Shown here piece after piece: positions 3,343 through 33,057 of a stretch of 49,972 bases of DNA. The notes below the pieces were generated by a model. The model saw nothing but the letters and a program-made list of their open reading frames with translations. It ran no database searches and had not been told where the DNA came from. The DNA is from a virus: positions 1 through 49,972 of IMG/VR virus record IMGVR_UViG_3300008122_000002, one strand, 5' to 3'. The translations under genes were made by a program, and so were the position numbers. Positions within the stretch are counted from its first letter, which is position 1, and the number at the start of each line of letters is the position of its first letter.

Positions 3343-3371
3343 ATCATCGCACCGCTTGACGCGACTGTCAA
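3343..3371 (-). promoter_or_regulatory. leftward early promoter with TTGAC-N6-GTCAA operator
   Basis: Read leftward: -35 TTGACA (3371-3366), 17-bp spacer, -10 GATGAT (3348-3343). The -35 region is one arm of TTGAC-AGTCGC-GTCAA. It drives 3109-3309 and the downstream replication operon, and shares its operator with the rightward promoter at 3356-3384. Confidence 0.65.
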
Positions 3372-3384
3372 CAAGAAATATCAT
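3356..3384 (+). promoter_or_regulatory. rightward early promoter, overlapping the leftward one
   Basis: TTGACG (3356-3361), 17-bp spacer, TATCAT (3379-3384). The spacer contains GTCAA, forming TTGAC-GCGACT-GTCAA with the -35 box. The same palindrome supplies the -35 box of the leftward promoter, so one bound protein could shut off both operons. Confidence 0.7.
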
Positions 3385-3419
3385 GCATTCACATCAACGA
3401 CACGCGGAGAGCGAAAGAT

Positions 3420-3791
3420 ATGGAGTATTTGTATAGAGCGTTTGACGATTACAGGTTCACGAGTTTCGACAGCACCATACAACGGGTATCGGTCAAAAGA
3501 TTCCCAATCGTTAAGCACACCAGGTGTGGTGCATGGATTGAGACAGGTGCGCCGAAACATCGATTCGTAAACCTTACCACGGCATATAAACAGTACGCTT
3601 CCGAGACCGTCGAAGATGCTGTCGAACAATACCGGAAGCGCAGGATTCGACAGTTGAGAATCCTGCACGGACAACTTGCACGCGCCGAGGAATATCTACG
3701 ACTAGCGGACAACATCGTTAAAGATGACTCGCACGGTGCACTGGATGTCTACGACGTGTGTGTCTACTTTACCACGGAGAGCGAATCATGA
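3420..3791 (+). CDS. hypothetical phage protein, 123 aa
   Basis: First gene of the rightward early operon. The middle contains a pattern seen in several phage proteins of unknown function: KHTRCGAWIE, FVNLTTAYKQYASETVEDA, then a basic helix (QYRKRRIRQLRILHGQLARAEEYL) that probably forms a coiled coil. Start at 3420 is supported by GCGGAGA about 10 bases upstream and the promoter at 3356-3384. The stop overlaps the next start (ATGA). Function unknown. Confidence 0.75.
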   Translation: MEYLYRAFDDYRFTSFDSTIQRVSVKRFPIVKHTRCGAWIETGAPKHRFVNLTTAYKQYASETVEDAVEQYRKRRIRQLRILHGQLARAEEYLRLADNIVKDDSHGALDVYDVCVYFTTESES

Positions 3792-4069
3792 TCACACTGA
3801 TCGAGTTTTACAAGCACCCCGAGCAGTGCCTCCAGTATCACGGAGACGTGACGGAAGACACTATCGAGGCGCTGGAAGAGTTGGAGGGGTTGAGGAAAGA
3901 GGTGGCGCGGTTACGCGTGCCGGAAGGGTGGAAGATTGTACCGGTTGAGCCGACGTATAAGATGCTTGATGTGGCACTGGATGCACTGGACCAATATGGG
4001 GATAGTCTGCGAATTACTTATGAGGTAATGGTCAGCGCCGCACCTAGTCCCGAGGATGTCGCGCGATGA
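3788..4069 (+). CDS. hypothetical phage protein, 93 aa
   Basis: Start at 3788 is fixed by ATGA overlap with the upstream stop and a CACGGAGAG ribosome site. The N-terminal part is acidic and helical (DVTEDTIEALEELEGLRKEVARL). The C-terminal part (PEGWKIVPVEPTYKMLDVAL... YEVMVSAAPSPED) follows the P-E-G-W...M-x-x-A-A-P pattern common in small phage proteins of unknown function. Stop overlaps the helicase start. No function assigned. Confidence 0.75.
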   Translation: MITLIEFYKHPEQCLQYHGDVTEDTIEALEELEGLRKEVARLRVPEGWKIVPVEPTYKMLDVALDALDQYGDSLRITYEVMVSAAPSPEDVAR

Positions 4070-5778
4070 CGCTTAACCGCACACTGATTGCCGACGCGAT
4101 CATCCGTCCGCAGTTGCGACCATATCAGCAGCAGGCGCGGGACGAGATCGACGCGGCGTGGCAGTCGGGTAGTCCAAACGTGCTTGCGGTGCTCCCGACC
4201 GGCGCAGGGAAGACCGTGCTGTTCAGCTCCATCATCGCCGACGAACCCGGCGCGTCTTGTGCCGTGGCGCATCGCCAGGAACTTGTCAGCCAGATGAGCA
4301 TGGCACTGGCGCGCAACCGTGTACGCCATCGGATCATCGGCCCACAAAAAGTCGTCAAGATGATTGTCCGTCTACACATGGAAGAAGTCGGGGCGAGCTA
4401 CTACGACCCGAACGCCCGTTGCGCGGTGGCCGGCGTTGATACGCTTGTGCGACGTGATGCACAACTTGCATCATGGCTGCCGACCGTCAAGCTATGGGTA
4501 ATGGACGAAGCGCATCACGTTCTCACGGCGAACAAGTGGGGAACGGCGGTACAGATGTTCCCCAACGCTCGCGGATTGGGCGTTACGGCCACACCTTGCC
4601 GCGCCGATGGTAATGGCCTCGGGCGTCACGCAGATGGTGTGTTCGATACGATGGTCATCGGCCCGACAATGCGCGACTTGATCGACATGGGGTTCTTGAC
4701 CGAGTATCGGATCTTCGCGCCGCCGAGTACGTTCCACCGTGAAGCAATTGCGGTCAGCGCGACAACTGGTGATTTCAATCTGGACTCCATGCGTAAGGCG
4801 GTTGCCGGGTCGTCACTTATCGCACCCGAAGGTAGAACGATTACCGGTGATATCGTGCAACATTACATCAGGATTGCATCGGGTAAACTCGGCGTTACAT
4901 TCGTCCCGGATATTGCAACGGCCACGGAGGTTGCTCAGCAGTTCAATAATGCGGGCGTACCAGCAATGGCACTGAGTTCCAAGACACCGGATGAAGAGCG
5001 TGCGAGAGTGCTGCGACAGTTTAAGCGTCGCGAGATCTTGCAACTGGTCAACGTGGATTTGTTCGGGGAGGGCTTCGATCTTCCGGCCATCGAAGTTGTG
5101 AGCATGGGTAGACCTACTCAAAGCTTTAGCCTCTTTTGTCAACAGTTCGGTAGAGCGCTAAGACTGCTAGACGGAAAGACTCACGCGATCATCATTGATC
5201 ATGTTGGGAATGTTGAATACATGGCTAAAACCCACGGGTTACCCGACAGCCCACAGCAGTGGTCACTTGATCGACGTGAGAAACGTAGCACCGGCAAGAG
5301 TGATGCACCAGCGGTACGCACATGCATTAAGTGTACGGCGGTATACGAGCGTTACATGGACGCCTGCCCGTTCTGCGGTGAACCGATCCCCGTACCGGCA
5401 GCGCGTACCGGCCCCGAGTTTGTCGAAGGGGACTTGCACGAACTGGACGCCAGCACACTTGCACGGATGCGCGCAGATGTGGCGATGGTAGACATGGATA
5501 CCGAGGAATACCGCCAACACTTGCAAGCAAAACACGTCCCGCACCTGGGCGTGCTGGCCGGCGTGAAGCGTCACAAGTTGCAGCAGGAAGCAGTCGCAGC
5601 ACTACGGGACGCAATGGCACAGTGGGGCGGATACAAGCGTGCAGCAGGTCGCAGCGACTCGGAGATTTACCGAGAATTTTACTTGCGCTTCGGGATCGAT
5701 ATGTTATCGGCTCAAGCGCTCAAGACTGACGAAGCGGTTGCACTCTGTGACCGCGTGAATAGGGAGATGGTGGGATGA
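4066..5778 (+). CDS. SF2 DNA helicase (SSL2/UvsW-like) with C-terminal zinc ribbon
   Basis: 570 residues. RecA-like domain 1: Walker A PTGAGKT (44-50), DEAH box (147-150), motif III TATP (174-177). Domain 2: motif V DLFGEGFDLP (331-340) and motif VI QQFGRALR (359-366). A C4 zinc ribbon follows (C420, C423, C434, C437). The C-terminal 130 residues are helical and resemble those of other phage SF2 helicases. Likely role: ATP-driven strand separation or branch migration during phage DNA replication or recombination (family knowledge). It overlaps by ATGA with both neighbours, including the VRR-NUC nuclease downstream, a frequent pairing. Confidence 0.92.
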   Translation: MTLNRTLIADAIIRPQLRPYQQQARDEIDAAWQSGSPNVLAVLPTGAGKTVLFSSIIADEPGASCAVAHRQELVSQMSMALARNRVRHRIIGPQKVVKMIVRLHMEEVGASYYDPNARCAVAGVDTLVRRDAQLASWLPTVKLWVMDEAHHVLTANKWGTAVQMFPNARGLGVTATPCRADGNGLGRHADGVFDTMVIGPTMRDLIDMGFLTEYRIFAPPSTFHREAIAVSATTGDFNLDSMRKAVAGSSLIAPEGRTITGDIVQHYIRIASGKLGVTFVPDIATATEVAQQFNNAGVPAMALSSKTPDEERARVLRQFKRREILQLVNVDLFGEGFDLPAIEVVSMGRPTQSFSLFCQQFGRALRLLDGKTHAIIIDHVGNVEYMAKTHGLPDSPQQWSLDRREKRSTGKSDAPAVRTCIKCTAVYERYMDACPFCGEPIPVPAARTGPEFVEGDLHELDASTLARMRADVAMVDMDTEEYRQHLQAKHVPHLGVLAGVKRHKLQQEAVAALRDAMAQWGGYKRAAGRSDSEIYREFYLRFGIDMLSAQALKTDEAVALCDRVNREMVG

Positions 5779-6251
5779 ACCTCACACAATGGGCACATCG
5801 TCACGGTGTCACACCGCAGGCTATGAGCGAGTTACACCAACTATTCGGGATCAGCACCGATCCGACACGATGCACTGCTAAAGCGGGTAGCGAGGCAGCG
5901 GTACAGACTGTGATTCGTCTAGAAGCGTCACGACTTGGCATCCGTGTCTGGCGCAACAACGTAGGGGCGTGTAAAGACGAAACGGGGCGAGTCATCCGGT
6001 ACGGACTGTGTAACGACTCGGCGCAGATGAACAAAGCGATTAAGTCGAGCGACTTGGTGGGTATTCGTCCGGTCATCATCACGCAGGATCATGTCGGTCA
6101 CACTATCGGTCAATTCGTAGCGCGTGAAGTTAAGCGTCCGGGCTGGCGCTACACAGGCACGGATCGGGAAGTGGCGCAGCTCGCTTTCGGACAGCTGGTG
6201 TCGAGTATGGGCGGGGATTTCAAGTTTGCAACGGGGGAGGGGTCACGGTGA
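5775..6251 (+). CDS. VRR-NUC domain nuclease
   Basis: 158 residues. The VRR-NUC core starts around GSEAAVQTVIRLEASRLGIRVWRN. A catalytic-type D lies in KSSDLVGIRPVI, and an E-x-K motif in FVAREVKRPGW, followed by EVAQLAFGQLVSSMGG. VRR-NUC proteins are PD-(D/E)XK-fold nucleases acting on DNA structures; phage versions are often encoded with an SF2 helicase as here. Coupled by ATGA at both ends. Role in resolution or repair of replication intermediates is inferred. Confidence 0.88.
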   Translation: MNLTQWAHRHGVTPQAMSELHQLFGISTDPTRCTAKAGSEAAVQTVIRLEASRLGIRVWRNNVGACKDETGRVIRYGLCNDSAQMNKAIKSSDLVGIRPVIITQDHVGHTIGQFVAREVKRPGWRYTGTDREVAQLAFGQLVSSMGGDFKFATGEGSR

Positions 6252-6967
6252 AGAAGGCGGTATTTCTATACGATTACACGGGAATCATGGCGCAGCCGTG
6301 GTTGGATGACGGGTACGAGTGCTGGATCTTCGACGGTCAGCACGAACAGGGGATTACTCGCGAAGGGAACCTTGTAAAGGTCGGTATGTGGTTCTACGCG
6401 GATAAAGTCCAAGAGCACGCTGAAACGATCCGCAACATGGTGGGTGATGGTGTGACGTTCGTGTTCGGATTCCCAGAATGCACGCATCTTGCCGTATCCG
6501 GTGCGAGGCACTTTGCAGTTAAGTTGGCAAAGAATCCGCGAATCCAGGACGACGCCACGGAGCTTGCCAAACTGGTTGAACTGGTTGCTGCACAGTGGAA
6601 TTGTCCGTGGGGCGCTGAGAACCCTGTGTCGGTTCTGGCAACCAAGTGGCGCAAGCCGGATCACACCTTTCAACCGTATGAGTTCGGGGGATACCTGCCC
6701 GCCGATGACATGCACTCAACCCATCCGGAAATGATCAAACCCCGTGATGCGTACCCGAAAAAGACGTGTATCTGGTCGGGCGGCGGGTTCATAATGCCTG
6801 ACAAGCTTCCGGTCGCGGTTGATCCGGGTTATTCGAATCAATTTAAGAAGCTTGGTGGCAAGTCACTTCGCACCAAGAATATCCGCAGCGCTACGCCCAG
6901 GGGTTTCGCAATGGCGTGTTGGGTCGCTAACAGATTGACCCACTCGCCAAACACTGATAGAGTGTAG
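6248..6967 (+). CDS. DNA cytosine methyltransferase-like phage protein
   Basis: 239 residues. Features: an N-terminal strand KAVFLYDYTGIMAQPW, a Y-E-C-W-I-F-D-G-Q-H segment, and a loop FPECTHLAVSGARHF (from about residue 75) that resembles motif IV (P-C) of C5-cytosine methyltransferases, then WGAENPVSVL. It belongs to a phage family often annotated as DNA methyltransferase or Dcm-like; I cannot confirm a complete SAM site. The loop reads P-E-C rather than the canonical P-P-C. Coupled by ATGA to VRR-NUC upstream. The promoter for the next gene lies inside its 3' end. Could modify DNA to evade restriction (inference) or be a non-catalytic relative. Confidence 0.6.
   Translation: MKKAVFLYDYTGIMAQPWLDDGYECWIFDGQHEQGITREGNLVKVGMWFYADKVQEHAETIRNMVGDGVTFVFGFPECTHLAVSGARHFAVKLAKNPRIQDDATELAKLVELVAAQWNCPWGAENPVSVLATKWRKPDHTFQPYEFGGYLPADDMHSTHPEMIKPRDAYPKKTCIWSGGGFIMPDKLPVAVDPGYSNQFKKLGGKSLRTKNIRSATPRGFAMACWVANRLTHSPNTDRV
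6935..6963 (+). promoter_or_regulatory. promoter of the TetR-like gene, inside the 3' end of 6248-6967
   Basis: TTGACC (6935-6940), 17-bp spacer, TAGAGT (6958-6963). The operator half-site is degenerate here: TTGAC-CCACTC-GCCAA instead of GTCAA. Confidence 0.55.
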
Positions 6968-6994: not shown

Positions 6995-7279
6995 ATGAAC
7001 CCGACCAAGCAATCTATCATTGACGCGGCGTACCAGATCGCCGATGAAAAAGGATTCACGCACGTCATGCGTGACGACGTAGCAACCCGTGCCGGTGTCG
7101 CATCCGGCAGCGTGAACTATTACTACTCCAACATGGACTCGCTACGCAGCGCCGTGATGCTGCGCGCTGTTGAGGAGGAGAATGTCCACATTATCGCCAT
7201 CGGACTGGCCGCCCGTCACCCTGTCGCAATGAGCGCACCGGAAGGGTTGCGACGTGCTGCGCTTGAGACACTGATGTAA
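6995..7279 (+). CDS. small TetR-type HTH DNA-binding protein, 94 aa
   Basis: Contains a clear TetR N-terminal helix-turn-helix: KQSIIDAAYQIADEKGFTHVMRDDVATRAGVASGSVNYYYSNMDSL (about residues 5-50), including the G-x-V-x-Y-Y-Y recognition region. It lacks the ~120-residue ligand/dimer domain of standard TetR proteins (~190-200 aa), so it is a DNA-binding domain with a short helical tail. It has its own promoter and an AGGAA ribosome site. It is the only obvious sequence-specific transcription factor in the window and therefore the best candidate for reading the TTGAC-N6-GTCAA palindromes (inference). Confidence 0.85.
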   Translation: MNPTKQSIIDAAYQIADEKGFTHVMRDDVATRAGVASGSVNYYYSNMDSLRSAVMLRAVEEENVHIIAIGLAARHPVAMSAPEGLRRAALETLM

Positions 7280-9919: not shown

Positions 9920-9940
9920 GCACTCTCCGGAGTGCTTTTT
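9920..9940 (+). terminator. intrinsic terminator after the primase-polymerase operon
   Basis: Stem GCACTC/GAGTGC (9920-9925, 9930-9935), loop TCCG, then TTTTT. Confidence 0.75.
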
Positions 9941-9951
9941 CGTAATGGGTG

Positions 9952-9980
9952 TTGACGGCTGCGTCAGACATGGGTACTAT
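9952..9980 (+). promoter_or_regulatory. early promoter/operator, copy A of a 65-bp repeat
   Basis: TTGACG (9952-9957), 17-bp spacer beginning GCTGCGTCAG, TACTAT (9975-9980). The block 9952-10016, including the leader GGAACACAACACGGAGATAGGG and the ATG, differs at about 4 of 65 positions from 11519-11583. Confidence 0.8.
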
Positions 9981-10013
9981 ACATACATCGGAACACAACA
10001 CGGAGATAGGGAA

Positions 10014-10244
10014 ATGGAAACATTCTACGGATTTACGGTTGCGGAGGACGTTCTCGAATCGTTTTATGAACGTCACAACGCTACACAGCTTGCTATTGCT
10101 ATCAGTTGGTACGACACGACCGGTACCGCATATGCAGGCACACTCGATGGTCAATACTGGTACGCAATGAGTGATGGGGACTTCTGGTGGGACGCAAAGC
10201 AGATCGTGATGTTCAAAAATGAAACCGTAAGGATGGTCAAATGA
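10014..10244 (+). CDS. hypothetical protein, 76 aa
   Basis: Start at 10014 follows the repeated promoter and ACACGGAGATAGGG ribosome site; longer in-frame starts would run back through the promoter and terminator. The sequence is rich in aromatic residues (WYDTTGTAYAGTLDGQYWYAM, GDFWWDAK). Its second half suggests a small beta-sheet protein. No family recognised. Stop overlaps the next ATG. Confidence 0.75.
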   Translation: METFYGFTVAEDVLESFYERHNATQLAIAISWYDTTGTAYAGTLDGQYWYAMSDGDFWWDAKQIVMFKNETVRMVK

Positions 10245-11518: not shown

Positions 11519-11547
11519 TTGACGGATGCGTCAGACATGGATACTAT
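11519..11547 (+). promoter_or_regulatory. early promoter/operator, copy B of the 65-bp repeat
   Basis: TTGACG (11519-11524), 17-bp spacer beginning GATGCGTCAG, TACTAT (11542-11547). Same leader and ribosome site as copy A at 9952. Confidence 0.8.
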
Positions 11548-11580: not shown

Positions 11581-11736
11581 ATGAAAACAATCATCGAACT
11601 GGAACGCGAAGATAACCGTAGCGTAGGAATCTATTTTGACGGGTCACTATATACCGCGATGACCTTCACCAAAAGCAAGACGTTTAAGACCGAATCCGGC
11701 GCACGTAAGTGGTTGTCGGTAAACTACACGGAGTAA
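11581..11736 (+). CDS. small hypothetical protein, 51 aa
   Basis: Begins MKTIIELEREDNRSVGIYFDG and ends WLSVNYTE. It looks like a compact beta-alpha peptide. It is placed exactly where the 65-bp promoter/leader repeat puts a start codon (ACACGGAGATAGGGGA then ATG). Not recognised; probably one of the many small early host-takeover peptides (inference). Confidence 0.7.
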   Translation: MKTIIELEREDNRSVGIYFDGSLYTAMTFTKSKTFKTESGARKWLSVNYTE

Positions 11737-13004: not shown

Positions 13005-13332
13005 CACAATGCCACGGTGGCGAGGGTAGTCGCAAAGCCTTGCGTGGCGTGGCTTTCATCGATTTTTACCTTCACCCCGACACGCGTTGCTATTCCCTGC
13101 TATATATCCCAGTATTTGTATTATGTATATTATGTATCTGTATCATTACTATATACCTACTACTATTAATTTATTAAAAGAGGGGTATAGAGGTAAAAGG
13201 GACGTAAAGCCTTATTTTACAAGACTTCCAGCGCACCCCAACTTTCCCACACCCCGACAATTTTGCGGGGTAGGTTTGGCAACTGCGCCGAACTGTGGCA
13301 TTATGCGAGTGTCGATCAACCACGGGGCAACC
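13005..13332 (+). repeat. late-operon leader, copy 1 (non-coding; 402-bp gap 12931-13332)
   Basis: The gap upstream of terminase holds no gene. From about 13005 it is a diverged copy of 33058-33360. Shared landmarks in order: a CCCCACA stretch, the palindrome GCCAC-G-GTGGC, GGGTAG, an AT-rich run with CTACTACTA and TTAATTTATTAA, AGGGGTATAGAGGTAAA, CCCCAACTTT, CCACACC, GCGGGGT and CTGCGCCG. Identity over the last 150 bp looks near three quarters. The first ~75 bases of the gap hold the AT-rich upstream region of the zinc-array gene. Confidence 0.75.
13276..13304 (+). promoter_or_regulatory. candidate terminase promoter
   Basis: TTGGCA (13276-13281), 17-bp spacer, CATTAT (13299-13304), at the end of late leader copy 1. 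Lacks the TTGAC-N6-GTCAA palindrome. Confidence 0.5.
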
Positions 13333-15236: not shown

Positions 15237-15386
15237 TCATTCACCATCATTCGCGAGTACGGCACGTTTCGCATTCTTGAACCCGTAATACGCTTTTGCA
15301 GTGTAAAGCGCGTCCTCAGCGCTTGTACCGTATTGGTGGCACAGTGTTGCGCCGTTGCGATCCTGGATTTTGTAGAGTTGTTTCAT
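15237..15386 (-). CDS. small leftward accessory protein, 49 aa
   Basis: Begins MKQLYKIQDRNGATLCHQYG and continues TSAEDALYTAKAYYGFKNAK. It is probably a small beta-alpha protein. It sits between terL and the portal gene in opposite orientation with its own promoter (15425-15453), an ACGGAGTAACGGAA ribosome site and a terminator, a self-contained cassette. Not recognised; function unknown. Confidence 0.65.
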   Translation of the reverse strand: MKQLYKIQDRNGATLCHQYGTSAEDALYTAKAYYGFKNAKRAVLANDGE

Positions 15387-15424
15387 TTCCGTTACTCCGT
15401 TGCGTGTTGTGTTCCGATGTGTGT

Positions 15425-15453
15425 ATAGTAACCCGGCTTGACGGCGTCGTCAA
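15425..15453 (-). promoter_or_regulatory. leftward cassette promoter/operator
   Basis: Leftward TTGACG (15453-15448), 17 bp, TACTAT (15430-15425). Palindrome TTGAC-GACGCC-GTCAA. The leader ACACACATCGGAACACAACACG matches the leaders at 9980 and 11547. Confidence 0.8.
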
Positions 15454-15510
15454 CACCTAATTGCAAAAAATAATGTGATACACTGCACGTATGAATGCAG
15501 AGGCTGAACA

Positions 15511-16947: not shown

Positions 16948-17754
16948 TTAGAGTTTGCGGAGGTCTTTTGCCGAAATGTACTGATTCACCCCGTTACGTT
17001 CACGCTCGTACGCACTATCCCCAATGGTAGATAGTCTCACCATTGTCACAATATCCCCTATATTGAAGTTGTGTTTCGGATATGTGACACCCACTACTTT
17101 AAACATATCCCCAACTTTCCACGTCGACGTATCTACCACCGACACATCTCCCCAACCCGCAGCAACTAGCGCCACCTCGACCGCTGCTTTCGCATCGCGT
17201 TGCGCCTGTTCCAGACGTTCCAGCTCGGTGCGGGTGAACTCGACGGCGCGGGTCGCTTCGGTGTGGATCTGGATCAGTTGTTCGATGGTGGGTGATATTG
17301 GCGTATTCATGAATGCACCGACACCCCTTTCAAGGAATGAACCGCAGTCTGTAATCCAGTCGTTTGCTGTATATTCTGGGGGAATCCAATTACTACGTCT
17401 CGCGGATTCACACAGTTGATCATACGTCAACTGTACTAAGTCTACGGTTACATTCGACGGGTCATCCGCCGGCACCGGTGCGGGCGTTACGCTCGCGACG
17501 TATTCGAGATATTCTTCGCGGGTCAGCTTGGTGCTGTAGTATTGGGTGATGGGTTTGGCGGTGGTGACGTCCTGATAATCCGTGTCGAATTCATTACGCA
17601 CCCAACCAGCGACGCAACAATAAAGATCGTCATTGGTGTATACGCGTACCCATCCACTCTTATCCTGCACCGCGACCACGTACTTCTCAGACCATTTCGC
17701 CCCGCTCGCACGGATAATTTCGGCCAATTGCTGCTTGCTCTTCGTAAGTTTCAT
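16948..17754 (-). CDS. hypothetical accessory protein with coiled coil and SH3-like end, 268 aa
   Basis: N-terminal ~90 residues resemble the N-terminus of the neighbour 17767-18153 (short helix, G-x-x-W, V-A-x-Q/H-D, then L-T/V-T-R-E/D-E-Y/F). Residues ~150-190 form a charged helix (TEATRAVEFTRTELERLEQAQRDAKAAVEVAL). The end (TWKVGDMFKVVGV... NIGDIVTMVRL) looks like a small SH3-like barrel. Good AAGGAGAG ribosome site. It is part of a leftward three-gene cassette inserted between portal and minor head genes. Function unknown. Confidence 0.65.
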   Translation of the reverse strand: MKLTKSKQQLAEIIRASGAKWSEKYVVAVQDKSGWVRVYTNDDLYCCVAGWVRNEFDTDYQDVTTAKPITQYYSTKLTREEYLEYVASVTPAPVPADDPSNVTVDLVQLTYDQLCESARRSNWIPPEYTANDWITDCGSFLERGVGAFMNTPISPTIEQLIQIHTEATRAVEFTRTELERLEQAQRDAKAAVEVALVAAGWGDVSVVDTSTWKVGDMFKVVGVTYPKHNFNIGDIVTMVRLSTIGDSAYERERNGVNQYISAKDLRKL

Positions 17755-17766
17755 GATTTACTCTCC

Positions 17767-18153
17767 TTAGTGATCTGAATATGCGATATACGCACCGCTT
17801 CCGGCTGGGAGGAATACCCATCGACCCGGAACATACGGTTCAACGCACAATTTACATCCCGGACACTGTCCATTCGGGTAAATGGACATAAACTCATCGC
17901 GAGTTACAATTTCGCGATTCCAGGCGACATGCCATACGGCGATCTCCATCGATTCGTGTCCGGGTGCGCACTGGTACGCCGGGAACCGAACCGTGAATGC
18001 ACCGGACTGTCTCGGTTCAGATGGTACAGGCGGCACAACGTGAAAGCGCAACATACCATTCGATTGATCGTGCGCTAGGAAGTTGTACCCGTCCGGCCAC
18101 ATGATGCCGACTCTGTGCAACTCGTCAATCATTGCCGACTTGTGGTCATTCAT
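17767..18153 (-). CDS. hypothetical accessory protein, 128 aa, with C-x2-C pair
   Basis: N-terminus HKSAMIDELHRVGIMWPDGY then FLAHDQSNGMLRFHVVPPVP; a similar block starts the neighbour 16948-17754, suggesting paralogy. Near residue 100 a NGQCPGCKLCVEPYVPGRW segment could bind metal. A start at 18153 with ACACGGAGG upstream is clear. Only part of the promoter seen at 18427-18455 is repeated upstream of it. Function unknown. Confidence 0.65.
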   Translation of the reverse strand: MNDHKSAMIDELHRVGIMWPDGYNFLAHDQSNGMLRFHVVPPVPSEPRQSGAFTVRFPAYQCAPGHESMEIAVWHVAWNREIVTRDEFMSIYPNGQCPGCKLCVEPYVPGRWVFLPAGSGAYIAYSDH

Positions 18154-18165
18154 GACCGCCCCTCC

Positions 18166-18202
18166 GTGTTAAACTACAATCACACTGTAACGCTATGTGA
18201 CG
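18166..18202 (-). repeat. 37-bp direct repeat, copy 1 (promoter/leader segment)
   Basis: Identical to 18409-18445. Read leftward it contains CGTCACATAGCG, TACAGT and GTTTAACAC, but here a TTGACA box is missing upstream. Confidence 0.85.
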
Positions 18203-18204
18203 AA

Positions 18205-18393
18205 TTAGAGTCTGCCGTATCTGTAATCGGCCGTTTTACGATAGTGGGTCCGGGATAGATCGACACCCTGATCTCTGGCCTTCTTCTCGTATTCCTTATC
18301 GGCGCGCCCGCTGCGTCCTCGTCTGTTGGAATTTGCTTCTGCAACATCTGCCCAACCTTTGTGCCTTACACCATTCTTGTCATACTTACCCAT
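18205..18393 (-). CDS. small basic protein, 62 aa
   Basis: Very basic, low in hydrophobic residues: GKYDKNGVRHKGWADVAEAN then RRGRSGRADKEYEKKARDQG. Probably binds nucleic acid or is partly disordered (inference from composition). First gene of the leftward cassette after the promoter at 18427-18455; AGAGAG lies before the ATG. Not recognised. Confidence 0.6.
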   Translation of the reverse strand: MGKYDKNGVRHKGWADVAEANSNRRGRSGRADKEYEKKARDQGVDLSRTHYRKTADYRYGRL

Positions 18394-18408: not shown

Positions 18409-18445
18409 GTGTTAAACTACAATCACACTGTAACGCTATGTGACG
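18409..18445 (-). repeat. 37-bp direct repeat, copy 2 (promoter/leader segment)
   Basis: Identical to 18166-18202; here it forms part of a complete promoter. Confidence 0.85.
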
Positions 18446-18455
18446 GGCTTGTCAA
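18427..18455 (-). promoter_or_regulatory. leftward cassette promoter/operator
   Basis: Leftward TTGACA (18455-18450), 17 bp, TACAGT (18432-18427). Palindrome TTGAC-AAGCCC-GTCAC. The -35 box abuts the ATG of the rightward head gene at 18456. Confidence 0.65.
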
Positions 18456-19561: not shown

Positions 19562-19731
19562 TTCATCTTCCCCACGATCCAGCCCGCGACAGCGTGTACG
19601 CCGATAGCCAGGGCGCTTGCAATGCCCAGACCAATTGCAACATACGGCGTCAGATTCACGGCATCGTTGAATACAAACAACACCAACCAGGTGAACCATA
19701 CCGCCACGAAATAGCTAAAACGACTGTTCAT
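19558..19731 (-). CDS. small two-TM membrane protein, 57 aa
   Basis: Two hydrophobic segments: YFVAVWFTWLVLFVF (about 7-21) and YVAIGLGIASALAIGVHAVA (30-49), ending WIVGKMK. ATGA overlaps tie it to both neighbours. It could be a holin-like, superinfection-exclusion or other inner-membrane protein; the sequence does not decide. Confidence 0.65.
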   Translation of the reverse strand: MNSRFSYFVAVWFTWLVLFVFNDAVNLTPYVAIGLGIASALAIGVHAVAGWIVGKMK

Positions 19732-20150
19732 TTGTTCGACTCCTCAATTGCCTGACGTAGGTACATGCACAAATCCAGTGCTTCTTGGTACGCATCCCAC
19801 AGCGCGTTACGCCCGTTATGCGCTTTCAACGGTTCACCGTACTTTTCTTTACCGATCAGTGCTCGATTCGTGAGATCCGCGAGAACCATCCCCAGGATTG
19901 GATCACCTTTGCCGTTCGGTGCGGGTTGTTCGGCAGTGGCGGGTTGCAGGTGTGACACATGGTGAAGTAATTGCCAAGTATGCTTATTGATCACTGTTTG
20001 GTAATCCTTAGTCGTGAACCACATTTCACCCTTGAAGTTCCTAGCCCAACCCCAACCCGGACAAAGCGGTGCATCTGCAATGTCGGTAGGCCACTTGCCG
20101 TCCAGACGCTCGACTAGGAATTGCATTGCTTGTTCGCGTGTGTAAGTCAT
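19728..20150 (-). CDS. MazG-like helical C-terminal domain protein, 140 aa
   Basis: N-terminal ~60 residues: REQAMQFLVERLDGKWPTDI then PGWGWARNFKGEMWF. After a Pro/Ala linker, residues ~83-135 (LGMVLADLTNRALIGKEKYG ... GRNALWDAYQEALDLCMYLR) look like the helix bundle of phage MazG-like or nucleotide pyrophosphohydrolase-type proteins (K-Y-G, then D-A-Y-Q-E-A-L-D). An activity on NTPs is possible but not shown. First gene of a leftward three-gene cassette; AGAGAGG precedes the start. Confidence 0.6.
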   Translation of the reverse strand: MTYTREQAMQFLVERLDGKWPTDIADAPLCPGWGWARNFKGEMWFTTKDYQTVINKHTWQLLHHVSHLQPATAEQPAPNGKGDPILGMVLADLTNRALIGKEKYGEPLKAHNGRNALWDAYQEALDLCMYLRQAIEESNK

Positions 20151-20190: not shown

Positions 20191-21354
20191 ATGAAAGCAC
20201 TGATTTGCGACCGCGCAAGCCATAAGATCACTCATCGTGAATATACCGATGAGGGCTTTTTGCGCGTTCCCGGCACTGTTGCCCGTGTCGGTATTCAGCA
20301 GTATCTCGCCCGTGAGCTGGGTCTACCCGGCGACCCCAACCGCATCGTTAACGTCTACCGCCCGCCCGAAGAAGTGTTTCACGCTGATTCGCTTACCTCG
20401 TTTGATGGCGTTGATGTAACAATAAACCACCCTGACGCGCTTGTCAACAGTAGTAACTACAAGAATGTCACAGCGGGTGTCGTGCGCGGTTCGGGGCGTG
20501 TCGATGGCGACTTCATCGTCTGCGATCTGATCGTTAAAGACCGGCAGGCCATCGACGCGATCAACTCCGGCAAGTGCGAGCTGTCGGCAGGTTATACGGC
20601 AGTATACGACGCGCAAGAAGGCGTCACGCCCCAGGGCGAGCGTTACGAGTTTATCCAGCGGGAAATTCGCATCAACCATGTTGCCTTGGTAGACAAGGCG
20701 CGTGCTGGTGCGAATGCCCGAGTTTTTGACCACAGCAACGACGAGGTAAGACCGATGACCCATAAAGTCATGCTCGACTCGGGCCGCACCGTGGAAATTG
20801 CAGACGAGGCAGCAGCGTTGCTCGTCGGTGATACCATCGATCGCCTGAAAAAATCCGTTGCGGACGCAGAAGCGAAGGCCGAGAAAGCCCAAGCAGCCGC
20901 AGACGCAGCGAAAGAACAACTGGAAGAAGCCCGCCAGCTGACCAGCGATTCCGCCATCCAGGCACGAGTAAAATCGATTGCCACGGTGCAAGCCAAAGCC
21001 CAACGCATCGCTGGCGAATCGTTCACTTGCGACAGCGTGGACACTGTAGAGATCGCCCGCGCCGCGATGAAAATCGCACGTCCCAAAGTCGATTGGTCGG
21101 ACAAGTCCGCTGCATACGTCCAAGCTGCTTTCGATGCCAAGATTGAAGAGATCGAGGAAGAGAAGGAAGAAGAGGATGAGACCAATGACGCGGGCGGCGT
21201 CGGCAAGATGCGCAAGACCGGTGATATGGCGACTATCGTCGCACAGTTGGCACAATTGGCTAAAGATGGTGCTGGCACTGCGACCACGGACAGTGCGCCG
21301 GTAGTATCCCGCGCCCAAGCGAATTTCCTGAAACGCACCGGTAAAGGGGCTTAA
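20191..21354 (+). CDS. DUF2213 capsid maturation protease/scaffold
   Basis: 387 residues. Residues 1-180 are DUF2213: EYTDEGFLRVPGTVARVGIQ, a V-Y-R-P-P-E-E-V-F motif, VDVTINHPDALV, GKCELSAGYTAVYD and INHVALVDKARAG. The C-terminal half is scaffold-like: a long coiled coil (DAEAKAEKAQAAADAAKEQLEEAR) and an acidic stretch (EEIEEEKEEEDE). In related myophages this protein precedes cement and capsid genes, as here, and probably guides procapsid assembly. No ribosome site precedes the ATG; see the promoter at 20156-20184. Confidence 0.85.
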   Translation: MKALICDRASHKITHREYTDEGFLRVPGTVARVGIQQYLARELGLPGDPNRIVNVYRPPEEVFHADSLTSFDGVDVTINHPDALVNSSNYKNVTAGVVRGSGRVDGDFIVCDLIVKDRQAIDAINSGKCELSAGYTAVYDAQEGVTPQGERYEFIQREIRINHVALVDKARAGANARVFDHSNDEVRPMTHKVMLDSGRTVEIADEAAALLVGDTIDRLKKSVADAEAKAEKAQAAADAAKEQLEEARQLTSDSAIQARVKSIATVQAKAQRIAGESFTCDSVDTVEIARAAMKIARPKVDWSDKSAAYVQAAFDAKIEEIEEEKEEEDETNDAGGVGKMRKTGDMATIVAQLAQLAKDGAGTATTDSAPVVSRAQANFLKRTGKGA

Positions 21355-22920: not shown

Positions 22921-22948
22921 AAACCGCCCCAACTCGGGGCGGTTTTCT
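22921..22948. terminator. terminator after the capsid gene
   Basis: AACCGCCCC-AACTC-GGGGCGGTT followed by TTCTT; converging with the HNH gene 22948-23763. Confidence 0.8.
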
Positions 22949-23763
22949 TATCTACCACCCTTGGACAGGTTATCAAACGCCCACAGTGGTTGGAGATTAG
23001 ACAGTGCGTTCACAATTGCCGGATCTGTAATACCCTGTTTCACCATTTGAACAACTGGAACAATGTGGTCAATATGCCATTCCCCGTAGTTCTCCCAGTT
23101 CATCCCGTCTTCAAACTTCACCTCAATGTGGGATTTGAGTTGTGCTACATCGTAACCTAGTATCTCAGATGTCAGTTTTGTCTTATCGTACCCACGTTGA
23201 ACCAGTCGTCCAACCATGTTACGAATGTACGTTGATAGTTTGAAATCAAGATCATTGCGGCGACGGTTACGATAGTAATGGTTCAATTTATCGCGGTTGT
23301 TCATCTGATATATCTTCGCAGCCGCTGCTCTTTTTTCCTTATGCTTCTCATAATCTCGGCGACGTTGTTCTCTCTCTTGTTCTATATTTCGAGCATAATA
23401 ATCGCGCTTCATTTCGCGAATGCGTTCAATGTTATTCTCGCGGTATAGCTTACGCTCAAGTCTACCCGCATCACTATTGTAATACTCGCGTTTCCACGCG
23501 TTCAGTTCTTCACGATGTTCCTCTCTGTACGTAGCTTTCTTTTCCAATAGTACATCCCTATTCTCGTAGTAATACCTACGATTCACCGCTTTAGAGCGTT
23601 CCGGATCGTCCGCTTTCCACTTGGCAACACGATCGCGAACACATTGTGCGCACTTACCATCGTTTACATATCGTTCCGAGTCGTGACCCTGCTTGCAGGG
23701 TTTACCCGTGTAGTAGTGTTTCAGACCTTCAGATCTCGCCGTCTTCTTGTCTATAATTTGCAT
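22948..23763 (-). CDS. HNH homing endonuclease
   Basis: 271 residues. N-terminal zinc module C23/H27/C38/C41 (KPCKQGH...GKCAQC). A long, highly charged helical spacer with near-repeats (RRYYYENRDVLLEKKATYRE, REYYNSDAGRLERKLYREN, RDYYARNIEQEREQRRRDYE) follows. The C-terminal HNH nuclease reads WHIDHIVP, then ALSNLQPL and DNLSKGG. Probably a free-standing homing endonuclease that spreads its own cassette at the capsid locus (family knowledge). Start at 23763 has GGACAGGAG upstream; a longer in-frame ATG would overlap the promoter. Own promoter at 23792-23820. Confidence 0.9.
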   Translation of the reverse strand: MQIIDKKTARSEGLKHYYTGKPCKQGHDSERYVNDGKCAQCVRDRVAKWKADDPERSKAVNRRYYYENRDVLLEKKATYREEHREELNAWKREYYNSDAGRLERKLYRENNIERIREMKRDYYARNIEQEREQRRRDYEKHKEKRAAAAKIYQMNNRDKLNHYYRNRRRNDLDFKLSTYIRNMVGRLVQRGYDKTKLTSEILGYDVAQLKSHIEVKFEDGMNWENYGEWHIDHIVPVVQMVKQGITDPAIVNALSNLQPLWAFDNLSKGGR

Positions 23764-23791: not shown

Positions 23792-23820
23792 AGACTACAC
23801 CTAGTGTACGCACCCGTCAA
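23792..23820 (-). promoter_or_regulatory. promoter of the HNH gene
   Basis: Leftward TTGACG (23820-23815), 17 bp, TAGTCT (23797-23792). The second palindrome arm is degenerate (GTACA instead of GTCAA). Confidence 0.65.
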
Positions 23821-24161: not shown

Positions 24162-24188
24162 AAAGCCCCGCTACGATGCGGGGCTTTT
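24162..24188. terminator. bidirectional terminator
   Basis: AAAGCCCCGC-TACGAT-GCGGGGCTTTT. The stem-loop core GCCCCGCTACGATGCGGGGC is the same as at 47793-47819. Confidence 0.8.
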
Positions 24189-24576
24189 ACTTGGTTCGAC
24201 AACGTGGACAACCTGTACCGCCGTTCACCAGGTTGTGAACCGATGCCGACCATTCGAATCCGTCCACATCGCAGCGCATGACGGCCTTTGAATGTGCACC
24301 GCGATACTCAGTTTCCCATCGGACGTATCGTTTGTTCGGTAGCGCGTTAAGCTGCACGATACGTTCCGCTGCCGTCCACCTACGGTTGCCGGTACACTGC
24401 GGACACCCGGTGCAACCGTTCAGCAGATTATGAACCGAAGCGGACCATTCGAATCCATCCACGTCGCAGCGCATGAGCGCCTTGGATGACTTGTTCCGGT
24501 ACCCGTCGACCCACCGGACAAATCGAATGTCCGGTAGATCGTTGAGTTGATCAATGCGTTCCGACTCTGGGGTCAT
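24187..24576 (-). CDS. two-repeat zinc-ribbon protein (DUF723-like), 129 aa
   Basis: Two tandem copies of a ~55-residue unit: ER(I/V)xQLNxLPxxRxVRW...YR...SKAxMRCDVDGFEWSASVHN, then L-x-N-G-x-T-G-C-P-x-C. Each copy has R-C-D-V-D-G and C-P-x-C. This resembles the DUF723-type repeats of phage proteins, some linked to homing nucleases, but no nuclease motif is present. ATG at 24576 comes one base after the TAA of 24578-24799. Probably binds nucleic acid (inference). Confidence 0.7.
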   Translation of the reverse strand: MTPESERIDQLNDLPDIRFVRWVDGYRNKSSKALMRCDVDGFEWSASVHNLLNGCTGCPQCTGNRRWTAAERIVQLNALPNKRYVRWETEYRGAHSKAVMRCDVDGFEWSASVHNLVNGGTGCPRCRTK

Positions 24577-24577
24577 A

Positions 24578-24799
24578 TTAGACGCGCTTGAACTTGAATC
24601 CCCAGTTCCCACCTGGCACATCCCCGTCATCATCAGCCGGCCCAATATCACCAAACCTGTCCTCGACGATGATATACACTTTACCAGGTGTAAACCTCAA
24701 GTAATCAGGTATTAAAACGCCAACTTCGGGAGTAAACCCCACAAATTCCACCTTGTCACCAATCTCCCAATCGCCCCATGTCACAAATTCCGTTTCCAT
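24578..24799 (-). CDS. small SH3-like accessory protein, 73 aa
   Basis: Acidic, beta-rich: WEIGDKVEFVGFTPEVGVLI, then LRFTPGKVYIIVEDRFGDIG and a D-rich loop. Looks like a KOW/SH3-like barrel of the kind common among small phage proteins. Start at 24799 is supported by GCGGAGG; an earlier in-frame ATG lies within the promoter's -35 region. First gene of a two-gene leftward cassette. Function unknown. Confidence 0.65.
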   Translation of the reverse strand: METEFVTWGDWEIGDKVEFVGFTPEVGVLIPDYLRFTPGKVYIIVEDRFGDIGPADDDGDVPGGNWGFKFKRV

Positions 24800-24829: not shown

Positions 24830-24858
24830 AATATACGACGCCGTGACGCGCCCGTCAA
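24830..24858 (-). promoter_or_regulatory. leftward cassette promoter/operator
   Basis: Leftward TTGACG (24858-24853), 17 bp, TATATT (24835-24830). Palindrome TTGAC-GGGCGC-GTCAC. Confidence 0.8.
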
Positions 24859-30157: not shown

Positions 30158-30172
30158 CAGAGGATGTAAAAA

Positions 30173-30973
30173 ATGGCTCTTGAACTGAACGTAATGACCC
30201 GTGGTATTGACTTCGAGGAGTTGGGCAGTCTCCTTAACGTCAAGGAACTGTCGCTTGCCAATGCCGCAACGACCAACGTCCACCCGATCCGCAAGGGCGA
30301 GTTTGACACCACCGTAGCCGCACTGGAAGCGGCTATTGCCGATGCGTCCGGTGCGTCCCATGCATATGTGGATACCACCAACGTCAACCTGACCGACGCG
30401 CTCGCTGACGGTACGTTTGCGACCGGTGGCTGGACGTTCGGTGCGACCACGCTGCATGTGGGTGATGTGCTGTTCCTGGACGCTGCAACCGAGCAGGACA
30501 GTGACCGCGCGTGGCTGATGATCGCCGCGAACGGTGATGCCGGCGACTTCAAGGCGTTCGGGTCGGACGTAGACACCGCGATTGCTGCGGCCGTAAATGG
30601 CGTTGTAGGCGACGCAGCGACCTATACCAACCTGGGACTGGTCGAAGACAAGTTCGTCTCCGTAGACGCCGATATCGCCGCGTTGCAGGCTGCTGAGGGT
30701 TCGCACACTCATACCGCCGAGTACGCTGTGACTTGGGGCGCTCCGGACGTTGACGGCATCCGTACTGCTACCATCGACACGTCGGTCGACTTTGGCACTT
30801 ACAAGGTCAACGCTCGCGTGTTGAAAGTGAAGGCTGGTGGCTTCTATGAGCACCTGTCCAGCACAGCGCTGGTCATCGAGTCGAGCGATACCGCTGTACG
30901 CCTGCGCACCGACTCCAGTTCGATCGTTGCGGCCACACTCAAACTGCTGGTGTCGGGCGTCCCGGCTGTGTAA
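30173..30973 (+). CDS. virion-associated fibre/head protein, 266 aa
   Basis: Starts MALELNVMTRGIDFEELGSL, then a short coiled coil (DTTVAALEAAIADASGAS), a beta region with GDVLFLDAATEQDSDRAWLM, another short coil (VSVDADIAALQAAEGSHTHT) and a beta-rich end (VKAGGFYEHLSSTALVIESS). Composition and place suggest a fibre or head decoration protein working with the preceding genes. AGAGGATG ribosome site; followed by a strong terminator that closes late block 1. Confidence 0.6.
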   Translation: MALELNVMTRGIDFEELGSLLNVKELSLANAATTNVHPIRKGEFDTTVAALEAAIADASGASHAYVDTTNVNLTDALADGTFATGGWTFGATTLHVGDVLFLDAATEQDSDRAWLMIAANGDAGDFKAFGSDVDTAIAAAVNGVVGDAATYTNLGLVEDKFVSVDADIAALQAAEGSHTHTAEYAVTWGAPDVDGIRTATIDTSVDFGTYKVNARVLKVKAGGFYEHLSSTALVIESSDTAVRLRTDSSSIVAATLKLLVSGVPAV

Positions 30974-30976
30974 CGT

Positions 30977-31017
30977 AACATGAAAAAGCGCCCCGCGATG
31001 GGGCGCTTTTTCATGTT
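30977..31017. terminator. strong terminator closing the head/fibre block
   Basis: An 18-bp perfect stem (30977-30994 with 31000-31017) with loop GCGAT, including GCGCCCC/GGGGCGC and a T5 tract on both strands. The strongest terminator in the window. Confidence 0.9.
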
Positions 31018-31022
31018 AAGTA

Positions 31023-31835
31023 TTAGAATACGCACTCGCACGGTTTAGTATCACCGTCATCGTTCACATCTTTGAACTGACGACGAACACGTGCGAAAAA
31101 TGTTCGAGGGTCTTCATGTTCAGTCGTGCGAATACCCGCACACTTCATTTTTGAAAACATATCCTCCACATCTTCTAGATAGTCATTCATTATTGAGTAA
31201 CCTATAACCTCTTCCGCATGTTTGGCCTTATTCCAGATTTCCGGATAGTTGCAAAATACGATATACCAGTGTTGTTTACTCGCTTTTAAACACCCCTTGC
31301 AATTGGCGTGTTTAAAATCACCGTATGTCAGCGGCGGTTCAATTCCAACATCCCTGGTAGAGAATATCGTTCGTTCCGTCTCAACATTCCACAGTGCAAG
31401 CGGATAGTCGCTCTTGTAACCACGCATCCCGAGAATTTGCGACCTACGCTGAATACGAACCTTCTCCCCAGCGTCGAACCCGTAGTAGATTACACAGTTT
31501 TTATCCGGTACAAACTCATTTAACCATTTATCGAATGGTTGTGTCTTCAGCCTATTCGTGCAAAGCGCCTGACCTCTAACTACCCGGAATGCCTTTGCAT
31601 CAATACATACGTCAAACTGATCTTTTTCCGACCAATGCGGGTGATTTGCATAGGTGATTGGAACATGCAGATACTCGGAAACTTCGCGTTTGAATCGTTT
31701 GATGTCAGCATCCTCAATGTTCGGGTGGATATCGTGATTCAGTAATACGACAGAATCCTGTCCGTATTTACGAACTACTTCAATTGCCACCAGTGCCGAA
31801 CTGTGACCGCCGCTGTAACATACAATATGTTTCAT
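31023..31835 (-). CDS. PAPS reductase-like / adenine nucleotide alpha-hydrolase family protein
   Basis: 270 residues. The PP-loop near the N-terminus reads SGGHSS (8-13) where the canonical motif is S-G-G-x-D-S. Further family-like stretches: VVLLNHDIHPNIEDADIKRF, C-T-N-R-L-K-T-x-P-F and GMRGYKSDYPLALWNVETE, with cysteines in CKGCLK and at the C-terminus (CECVF). Phage members of this family are common; the substrate is unknown, and a role in nucleic acid thiolation or nucleotide chemistry is only a possibility. Start at 31835 fits GGGAGGG; the longer in-frame start lies in the promoter. Confidence 0.82.
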   Translation of the reverse strand: MKHIVCYSGGHSSALVAIEVVRKYGQDSVVLLNHDIHPNIEDADIKRFKREVSEYLHVPITYANHPHWSEKDQFDVCIDAKAFRVVRGQALCTNRLKTQPFDKWLNEFVPDKNCVIYYGFDAGEKVRIQRRSQILGMRGYKSDYPLALWNVETERTIFSTRDVGIEPPLTYGDFKHANCKGCLKASKQHWYIVFCNYPEIWNKAKHAEEVIGYSIMNDYLEDVEDMFSKMKCAGIRTTEHEDPRTFFARVRRQFKDVNDDGDTKPCECVF

Positions 31836-31868
31836 CTTCCAACCCTCCCGCTCCGTTAAAGTATCGCC

Positions 31869-31897
31869 AGTATCACCCGCACTGACAACGCCGTCAA
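31869..31897 (-). promoter_or_regulatory. promoter/operator of the PAPS-like gene
   Basis: Leftward TTGACG (31897-31892), 17 bp, GATACT (31874-31869). Palindrome TTGAC-GGCGTT-GTCAG. The ~65-bp block through the ATG is a near copy of 32862-32798. Confidence 0.75.
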
Positions 31898-31938
31898 GCG
31901 TTACATGCATTACAATACACCCCAGGAGGATCTAACTC

Positions 31939-32358
31939 ATGGAAATTACTAACGAATTGGTCGCGTCGTTCCGCAGCGCGCCGGGCATGATTGCGTTTAG
32001 CAGCACGGTGAAGTGGCCTGACGACTATGTGACTACCGCGCTGTGCGAGGGTGACGTAGAGACAGGCGGGCGCGGCTGGGGTGCGTTTGTGGACGATTGC
32101 AGCAACTTCAAGCGGCGCGGTATGTTCCTGTACGCTGCGGCGTGGCTCGTCAACAACTTTGGCGACGGTGGCCCAAGTACGCACACGTCGGGCGAGGCGC
32201 GGTTGAACGTTGCGAGTAAGTCCATCGGTGACGAGTCGATTGCATACCGTGTGCCGGAAATGATGAATGTCCCGAATGATTGGTTGTCATTTAGTCACTA
32301 CGGGCAGCAATTCATGCGCTTAAGACGGCGCGCCGGCATGGGCGCGCTGGCGGTGTGA
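31939..32358 (+). CDS. head-tail adaptor (DUF4054 family)
   Basis: 139 residues. DUF4054 features: helical N-terminus, WGAFVDDCSNFKRRGMFLYA then AAWLVNN, S-K-S-I-G-D-E-S-I-A-Y, and the Y-G-Q-Q-F-M-R-L end. Proteins of this type form a connector ring under the portal. AGGAGG ribosome site, TACAAT at 31911 as possible -10. It stands alone between leftward cassettes, separated from the other connector genes by 1 kb, and has its own terminator. Confidence 0.8.
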   Translation: MEITNELVASFRSAPGMIAFSSTVKWPDDYVTTALCEGDVETGGRGWGAFVDDCSNFKRRGMFLYAAAWLVNNFGDGGPSTHTSGEARLNVASKSIGDESIAYRVPEMMNVPNDWLSFSHYGQQFMRLRRRAGMGALAV

Positions 32359-32360
32359 GT

Positions 32361-32385
32361 GAGGCGCCCCGAGTTGGGGCGCTTT
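32361..32385. terminator. terminator between converging genes
   Basis: GCGCCCC-GAGTT-GGGGCGC (32362-32380), then TTTG. Confidence 0.75.
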
Positions 32386-32386
32386 G

Positions 32387-32800
32387 TCACTGGCAACTAT
32401 ACGGACGATCATGCATTTTACCGCAAAACGGACACGCTCCAGGTTCACCCTCATTTGCACCGGTCACATGGTCGAACCGTAGTACAAACTCCTCGTATCG
32501 ACTGTAATAATGACCTGAAATGTAAAACTGTTTAAGCAGTTCCCACAGGTGCTCAATTTCATCGTTGTAACATTTGAACTCAAACTCTCCGATCACCAAC
32601 GTAACAGTATCTTCCAGTAGGATCGTTGATGTATGTCCGAAGAAGCTATGACAGCTAGGAAGTTTGAAAAATTCAAAATTACTCAAAACATCTGGAGTAT
32701 CCGTACATTCGTTGTCAGGATCCAACCAGTGAACTAGTGCTTCAGTTTCCGGTGTCCTGCGGAGGACAACATTCGCCTCGACCCATGTATACGCGCCCAT
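32387..32800 (-). CDS. hypothetical accessory protein with C-terminal zinc knuckle, 137 aa
   Basis: Starts MGAYTWVEANVVLRRTPETE, with a beta-alpha core (TSTILLEDTVTLVIGEFEFK, EIEHLWELLKQFYISGHYYS). The end C-P-F-C-G-K-M-H...C contains C-x2-C-x3-H that could hold a metal. GGGAGGG ribosome site. Its promoter lies inside the coding end of 32804-32995. Function unknown. Confidence 0.65.
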   Translation of the reverse strand: MGAYTWVEANVVLRRTPETEALVHWLDPDNECTDTPDVLSNFEFFKLPSCHSFFGHTSTILLEDTVTLVIGEFEFKCYNDEIEHLWELLKQFYISGHYYSRYEEFVLRFDHVTGANEGEPGACPFCGKMHDRPYSCQ

Positions 32801-32803
32801 CCT

Positions 32804-32995
32804 TCAGCCCTCCCACTCCGTTAAAGTATCGCCAGTATCACCCATGCTGACAACGTCGTCAAGCTTTCCATACGCTTCGTTGAGTTCCGCTTTACCGATC
32901 TTCCCCGTCGCGTAATCCTCGTACATCTTCGCTACAAACGTGGCGAGTTCTTCATCCGTGACGACGGGCGGTTCATCGTGTTCGTACATGTTCAC
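32804..32995 (-). CDS. small acidic accessory protein, 63 aa
   Basis: Acidic helical protein: HDEPPVVTDEELATFVAKMY then EDYATGKIGKAELNEAYGKL. The GTG at 32995 has GGAGGG seven bases upstream; an ATG six bases further in is the alternative. Its last 18 codons (LDDVVSMGDTGDTLTEWEG) coincide with the promoter of the next gene; the same peptide is encoded as a relic before the PAPS-like gene (LDGVVSAGDTGDTLTEREG). Function unknown. Confidence 0.65.
   Translation of the reverse strand: MNMYEHDEPPVVTDEELATFVAKMYEDYATGKIGKAELNEAYGKLDDVVSMGDTGDTLTEWEG
32834..32862 (-). promoter_or_regulatory. promoter/operator inside the 3' end of 32804-32995
   Basis: Leftward TTGACG (32862-32857), 17 bp, GATACT (32839-32834). 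Palindrome TTGAC-GACGTT-GTCAG. Drives 32387-32800. Confidence 0.75.
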
Positions 32996-33028
32996 AGGTC
33001 AACCCTCCCCGTTAATTTTCGATAATTT

Positions 33029-33057
33029 ATAGTATTACCGCCCGACGAACCCGTCAA
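33029..33057 (-). promoter_or_regulatory. promoter of 32804-32995
   Basis: Leftward TTGACG (33057-33052), 17 bp, TACTAT (33034-33029). Operator arm partly degenerate (GTCGG). Confidence 0.75.

Follow-up and report, generated by a model that had tools for sequence, protein, structure and literature searches.

A ligand-free TetR-type protein and −35-fused palindromic operators suggest an early shutoff regulon in a contractile-tailed phage and its relatives

INTRODUCTION

Bacterial TetR/AcrR repressors such as EilR (5vl9) and E. coli RutR recognize, by a TetR_N helix-turn-helix, a palindromic operator of 14–16 base pairs (bp), which overlaps the promoter and serves in autoregulation. Lambda Cro and Mu Ner are small, early, autoregulated DNA-binding proteins, and gp71 of mycobacteriophage L5 acts as a single phage repressor at many dispersed sites, the stoperators. 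Here we describe a system that has features in common with all three. It is encoded by the IMG/VR virus record IMGVR_UViG_3300008122_000002, and consists of a family of promoters whose −35 box forms one half of a palindrome, and of a 94-amino-acid TetR-type protein. The whole stretch of 49,972 bases is referred to as the window. We conclude that the palindrome is very probably the operator of the TetR-type protein, which would impose a Cro/Ner-like, autoregulated and timed shutoff on early and accessory transcription.

The window derives from a tailed phage of the contractile-tailed type, as judged by its sheath-like and baseplate genes, and its large-terminase gene (terL) is about 77% identical in DNA sequence to that of the Klebsiella Jedunavirus JD001. 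The protein annotated as 'TetR family transcriptional regulator' in Jedunaviruses (JD001 gp45 and relatives) is the direct homologue of the window protein. Its gene has the same place before the primase gene and the same operators, and it is known as an annotation alone. We found no paper on a TetR regulon or operator of these phages in the open-access literature.

RESULTS

A palindrome fused to the −35 box is over-represented in the window

The sequence-only reading of the window had claimed a set of promoters with TTGAC, a −10 box exactly 17 bp further on and, at nine of them, a second arm completing a TTGAC-N6-GTCAA palindrome. The core of this palindrome and the corresponding operator are as follows.

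Core TGAC-N6-GTCA at positions 850, 3357, 9953, 11520, 15439, 18441, 20433, 24844, 31883 and 32848
Operator DNA of the proposed phage TetR-type repressor, sequence form: TTGACGGCGTCGTCAA

The ten cores compare with 1.15 (standard deviation 1.09) expected, and none of 100 dinucleotide shuffles reached this number. All ten have a −10-like hexamer, with four or more of the six bases of TATAAT, at a distance of exactly 17 bp from the −35 hexamer, against 0.49 expected (the reversed pattern occurred once), which bears out the claimed promoter spacing and shows that the palindrome is not equally common outside promoters. The combined pattern TTGAC-N6-GTCA-N8-WANNNT was found eight times (0.00 expected; none in 100 shuffles).

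Some details of the sequence-only reading had to be corrected. The full TTGAC-N6-GTCAA form is exact only at 3356 and 15438; at the other sites the outermost base of the far arm is variable. All nine listed palindromic promoters are real, but 3356+ and 3371− read one and the same palindrome from opposite strands, therefore the nine represent eight distinct operators; two further sites, 864− and 20447−, had been overlooked. The four sites described as having degenerate second arms (6935, 23820, 33057 and 41624) do have them. With these four damaged sites included, the window contains 14 operators and 15 promoters. The distance from the −35 box to the start codon is 57–67 nucleotides (nt) in 12 of the 15, so promoter, leader and ribosome-binding site make up a standard unit.

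The candidate binder is a TetR-type DNA-binding domain

The candidate for the protein that binds the palindrome is encoded next to the replication genes.

6995..7279, + strand: candidate repressor, 94-amino-acid TetR-family DNA-binding domain without ligand domain (TetR_N and fold match)

The protein matches Pfam TetR_N (PF00440) with an E-value of 1e-8 and 35.3 bits, above the curated cut-off of 24, and phrog_8723 with 6.5e-31, a family that PHROGs classes as of unknown function. The AlphaFold model of the monomer (predicted local distance difference test score 94) consists of helices only, and in a fold search of the PDB TetR repressors were the best matches, the EilR–DNA complex 5vl9 coming first. 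Beyond the DNA-binding domain and helix 4 the model has three short helices only. The C-terminal ligand-binding and dimerization domain (about 100–130 amino acids) is absent; the product ends at residue 94, which makes it a lone TetR-type DNA-binding domain and not a full TetR regulator. The primase open reading frame begins 28 nt past the end of tetR, and the homologues are 86–112 amino acids long. A total of 96 phage records contain such homologues, among them those of Klebsiella Jedunavirus and of Edwardsiella, Vibrio, Pantoea and Acinetobacter phages. A back-translated peptide search of viral contigs revealed no close relatives of the window TetR, and queries with divergent TetRs returned mostly the same contigs.

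The gene sits among helicase and primase genes, and operators overlap the −35 boxes of those genes. In 15 of the 22 genomes compared, tetR has its own promoter with an operator (0–1 mismatch), mostly 58–69 nt ahead of the ATG. This position suggests that tetR is autoregulated through the palindromic operator in its own promoter. The sites are two-fold symmetric with about 10 bp between half-sites, as would fit a candidate dimer.

Operator and TetR co-occur, and the far arm varies with the recognition helix

Five terL relatives without TetR served as control genomes. When palindromes were enumerated without a prior motif, the GTCA palindrome was among the most over-represented in most TetR carriers and was found in none of the five controls. 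TetR was the only open reading frame of the window with homologues in all 14 phages with the GTCA arm and in G003, G009 and PhiPLPE (17 in total) and in none (0/5) of the controls. What else these phages have in common with the window differs: for Acinetobacter phage Scuro it is mainly replication-type genes, for PhiPLPE and G009 virion-module genes.

Promoters with TTGAC and a −10 box were pooled from 16 TetR-bearing phages, the window included. The GTCA arm was present in 128 of these 172 promoters, thus relatives keep this arm and not the −35 box alone; some other relatives have another arm in the identical register, paired with a different TetR. After removal of promoters sharing 80% identity or more over 70 nt, 90 non-redundant promoters were left, for which the −10 box was the only guide to orientation. 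An outer T flanked the half-site of the −35 side in 98% of them, whereas its counterpart, an A outside the far half-site, was present in 39% (Fisher p = 2e-19). Position 6 was G in 72% and position 11 was C in 77%, a symmetric preference unlike the A of the −35 consensus. The asymmetry of the outer bases and the symmetry of the inner G/C indicate two superposed signals, the TTGAC of sigma-70 and the symmetric TGACG-N4-CGTCA of a further factor. The second of these prevails at position 6, where the −35 consensus has A.

The far arm was scanned with TTGAC demanded at the −35 arm; sites in mirror orientation are the same sites on the other strand. It was GTCA in 18 phages. In G003 it was CGCCA (n = 8, E = 3e-12), and in G009 and PhiPLPE, which have the common recognition helix DGLI(A/S)KPF, it was CGGCA (E = 9e-7 and 4e-6), the register being unchanged in all three. 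Variants of the inner bases were TGACT..AGTCA in G010 and TGACA..TGTCA in Scuro. Since GTCA, GCCA and GGCA differ in step with the recognition helix, the arm that is free of sigma-70 varies with TetR, and the −35 arm stays constant.

Other enriched palindromes were seen in more distant TetR carriers: GCTT-AAGC in R9Y1 and GGCT-N9-AGCC in AeroV_348. These may be the operators of distant mini-TetRs.

Genes behind the operator-promoters

The individual sites and the genes that they would serve are listed below.

836..864 (palindrome 849–864), − strand: operator-promoter, TTGACGAAACCGTCAT...TACAGT, within the 3′-terminal part of the DUF2800 exonuclease gene and preceding the single-stranded-DNA-annealing gene 3–767 (−)
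3343..3384, both strands: bidirectional operator-promoter, TTGACGCGACTGTCAA, both arms serving as −35, with −10 boxes TATCAT (+) and GATGAT (−)
6935..6963, + strand: tetR(-primase) promoter with operator, TTGACCCACTCGCCAA, far arm ..CGCCAA, 60 nt before the tetR ATG
9952..9980, + strand: operator-promoter for 10014–10244 (+) and the deoxycytidine triphosphate deaminase-like gene downstream
11519..11547, + strand: operator-promoter, duplicate of 9952, for 11581–11736 (+)
15425..15453, − strand: operator-promoter for 15237–15386 (−), between terL and portal
18427..18455, − strand: operator-promoter for the leftward accessory cassette 18393..16948
20419..20447 (palindrome 20432–20447), − strand: operator-promoter, TTGACAAGCGCGTCAG...TATTGT, within the prohead-protease gene
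23792..23820, − strand: degenerate-arm promoter, far arm ..CGTACA, endonuclease VII-like gene 22948–23763 (−)
24830..24858, − strand: operator-promoter for 24578–24799 (−) and HNH endonuclease 24187–24654 (−)
31869..31897, − strand: operator-promoter for the phosphoadenosine-phosphosulfate (PAPS)-reductase-like gene 31023–31835 (−)
32834..32862, − strand: operator-promoter, duplicate of 31897, for 32387–32800 (−)
33029..33057, − strand: degenerate-arm promoter, far arm CGTCGG, for 32804–32995 (−)
41596..41624 (site 41609–41624), − strand: half-degenerate operator, far arm ..CGCCAG, in the spacer that precedes the baseplate spike

The palindrome thus lies ahead of the helicase operon and the recombination operon, of tetR-primase, of the single-stranded-DNA-annealing, PAPS-reductase-like and endonuclease genes, and of small genes of unassigned function. 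One operator, at 3356/3371, lies between the divergent helicase operon (right, +) and recombination operon (left, −). Short cassettes lying antisense to the virion genes make up most of the targets; the virion genes are without a site except 41609–41624. The claim that the promoters serve early and accessory genes but not virion genes therefore stood for the helicase, recombination and tetR-primase genes and for the antisense accessory cassettes, with one exception at 41609–41624 beside the baseplate spike. The 864− site is kept in place, inside or just behind the exonuclease gene, in JD001 (35803), KsaM-C1 (11428), PEi21 (32144) and VchM-138 (4028).

Several promoters occur in duplicated cassettes: 9952/11519 (78 nt, 91%) and 31833–31906/32798–32871 (86%); 15403–15469 resembles 9936–10002 (79%, inverted). 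Because of these duplications some window promoters are not independent.

Site 41609–41624 lies in a spacer of about 500 nt (41156–41643), which contains the conserved operator (in relatives TTGACAGTCACGTCA); similar spacers of 135–590 nt were found in PEi21, VchM-138, JD001, PEAT2 and Geezett. The spacer possibly encodes a small RNA or contains a silent operator.

An exact 37-nt copy of the far arm, −10 box and leader of the 18455− promoter, without the −35 half, is located at 18166–18202 (−) and precedes the next gene, 17767–18153 (−). It looks like a promoter duplicate that has lost the −35 box and half of the operator. A small Cys-rich module is present twice in the endonuclease gene (24187–24486), encoded by an internal direct repeat of 93 nt (81%, spacing 195).

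A 118-nt repeat (81%) is found at 13154–13271 and 33205–33322 (+), ahead of the small-terminase gene and of the virion gene 33307+, respectively. The copies have a common AT-rich block, TACTACTA..AATTTATTAA..GGGGTATAGAGGTAAA, and no operator; JD001 carries TATATACTATA ahead of its terminase block. The repeat is a candidate late-promoter or regulatory element. Two 50-nt stretches, 2734–2783 and 47978–48027, are 82% identical and encode the motif ..PWDARIH.., which is carried by the recombination-operon protein 2330–3103 (−) and, in its C-terminal part, by the DNA polymerase 47823–49955 (−).

Two other explanations of the palindrome were dismissed. No transfer RNA was found in the window, which rejects a transfer RNA feature, and a restriction-modification site was rejected by the over-representation and promoter linkage of the palindrome, which is not avoided.

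DISCUSSION

Support for the proposed regulon comes from the anatomy, enrichment and conservation of the sites, the autoregulatory position, the TetR fold, the exclusive co-occurrence of TetR with the operator, and the way in which the far arm matches the recognition helix. A TetR dimer would insert one recognition helix into each TGAC half-site, the half-sites being about 10 bp apart. As one half-site is the TTGAC of the host sigma-70 −35 box, TetR binding would exclude RNA polymerase, and TetR bound over the −35 box would keep the host enzyme off about 14 early and accessory operators. At phage entry the promoters would be unoccupied, so that helicase, recombination, tetR-primase and accessory cassettes would be transcribed together. 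TetR would then build up and turn off all operator promoters, including that of tetR, before late gene expression. Virion genes, which have no operator, would stay outside the shutoff. Repression rather than activation, and its timing, are suggested by the position of the sites and the fold of the protein. We likewise infer that the palindrome acts as the phage-wide switch that the sequence-only reading had envisaged.

Several observations weigh against this proposal. The −10 boxes of the palindrome promoters are weak, mostly 4/6, and in some relatives a minority of cores have a −10 box at 17 bp (2/8 in VchM-138, 5/13 in AAM22 and 6/14 in KsaM-C1). Seven distant TetR carriers (AeroV_348, R9Y1, CKB-S1, SFCi1, 367.14, PD0307 and 1.009.O) have no GTCA, GCCA or GGCA arm, thus the pairing of TetR and arm is confined to part of the protein family. 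The non-GTCA arms come from three genomes; as GCCA represents one lineage and GGCA two related proteins, shared ancestry is only partly controlled. Two sites are at odds with a simple role as early promoters. The next leftward gene (19728–20150, −) is 297 nt away from the 20447− promoter. At 41609–41624, whose counterparts in JD001 and other phages adjoin the baseplate-spike gene, the best −10 box faces away from the spike, and no leftward gene was found downstream.

The main rival on function is an immunity-type use: the phage TetR would bind the palindrome, but for lysogeny or superinfection immunity and not for timed shutoff. A genome-wide repressor with many operators does resemble L5 gp71 and its stoperators. 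We consider this unlikely, since no integrase or partition gene was found among the window proteins scanned, which did not comprise every open reading frame, or in the annotations of JD001, PEi21 and VchM-138, and tetR lies within the early cluster beside replication genes, not in a separate divergent immunity region.

The main rival on identity is a host regulator, such as the TetR-family RutR, whose control the phage would exploit. The E. coli RutR box, TTGACCA-NN-TGGTCAA, has the TTGAC-N6-GTCAA frame (our literature search did not confirm this box), but its inner bases are C..G, and those of the phage sites G..C. Such a box would demonstrate that the frame can be recognized by a TetR protein. 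The motif recurs in phages of Klebsiella, Edwardsiella, Vibrio, Pantoea and Acinetobacter, where it tracks the phage TetR; it is missing from the terL relatives that lack TetR, and its arms differ along with the phage protein. These findings make a host regulator quite improbable.

About as improbable is a far arm that is part of an extended promoter, read by RNA polymerase, a phage sigma factor or an activator. The constant 17-bp spacing to the −10 box agrees with such a role. However, the G at position 6 departs from the −35 consensus and is symmetric with the C at position 11, sigma contact with the far arm is not known, several relatives have cores without an in-register −10 box, both arms are employed as −35 at 3356/3371, and the arms vary with TetR. 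Chance, or the spread of a single mobile promoter cassette, to which the clear duplicates 9952/11519 and 31897/32862 might point, is practically eliminated by the 90 promoters left after de-duplication and by the shuffles, which gave none.

Taking the phage TetR as the binder of the palindrome, we somewhat favour a wider interpretation: several phage genera without apparent lysogeny genes would run early expression through a ligand-free TetR domain with an operator fused to the −35 box, and repressor and arms would diversify into specificity groups (GTCA, GCCA, GGCA, and the inner-base variants TGACT and TGACA). If so, the regulons of related phages would be mutually blind because repressor and arms diversify together, and the operators would be asymmetric because sigma-70 needs TTGAC and the −35-side arm is fixed.

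If true, the proposal would assign a role to a protein that dozens of Klebsiella phages carry as an annotated gene product and that has 'unknown function' in PHROGs, and would explain how early and accessory genes are switched off with host RNA polymerase only. Genes behind the palindrome would be flagged as early or host-takeover candidates. The family would also provide a natural collection of small repressors that act without an inducer and are matched to their operators, in which the co-evolution of a repressor with many sites could be examined where the sigma factor fixes half of each site.

Compared with the known systems, the phage protein has the TetR_N domain, promoter-overlapping palindrome and probable autoregulation of bacterial TetR/AcrR repressors, but at 94 amino acids it lacks the C-terminal ligand-binding domain and no inducer is expected; bacterial members control one or a few host operons, whereas the phage protein would control about 14 viral operators. 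Like Cro and Ner it would silence early transcription, but it has a TetR fold, and its operators are dispersed over the genome, each with a half-site fused to the −35 box, instead of being confined to one or two control regions. L5 uses asymmetric sites, mostly outside promoters, for prophage immunity; the sites described here are promoter palindromes in phages without apparent lysogeny genes. What appears to be new, as judged against the open-access literature, is a probably autoregulated, putative phage repressor with a ligand-free TetR fold, genome-wide −35-fused operators, and operator arms whose sequence goes with that of the recognition helix.

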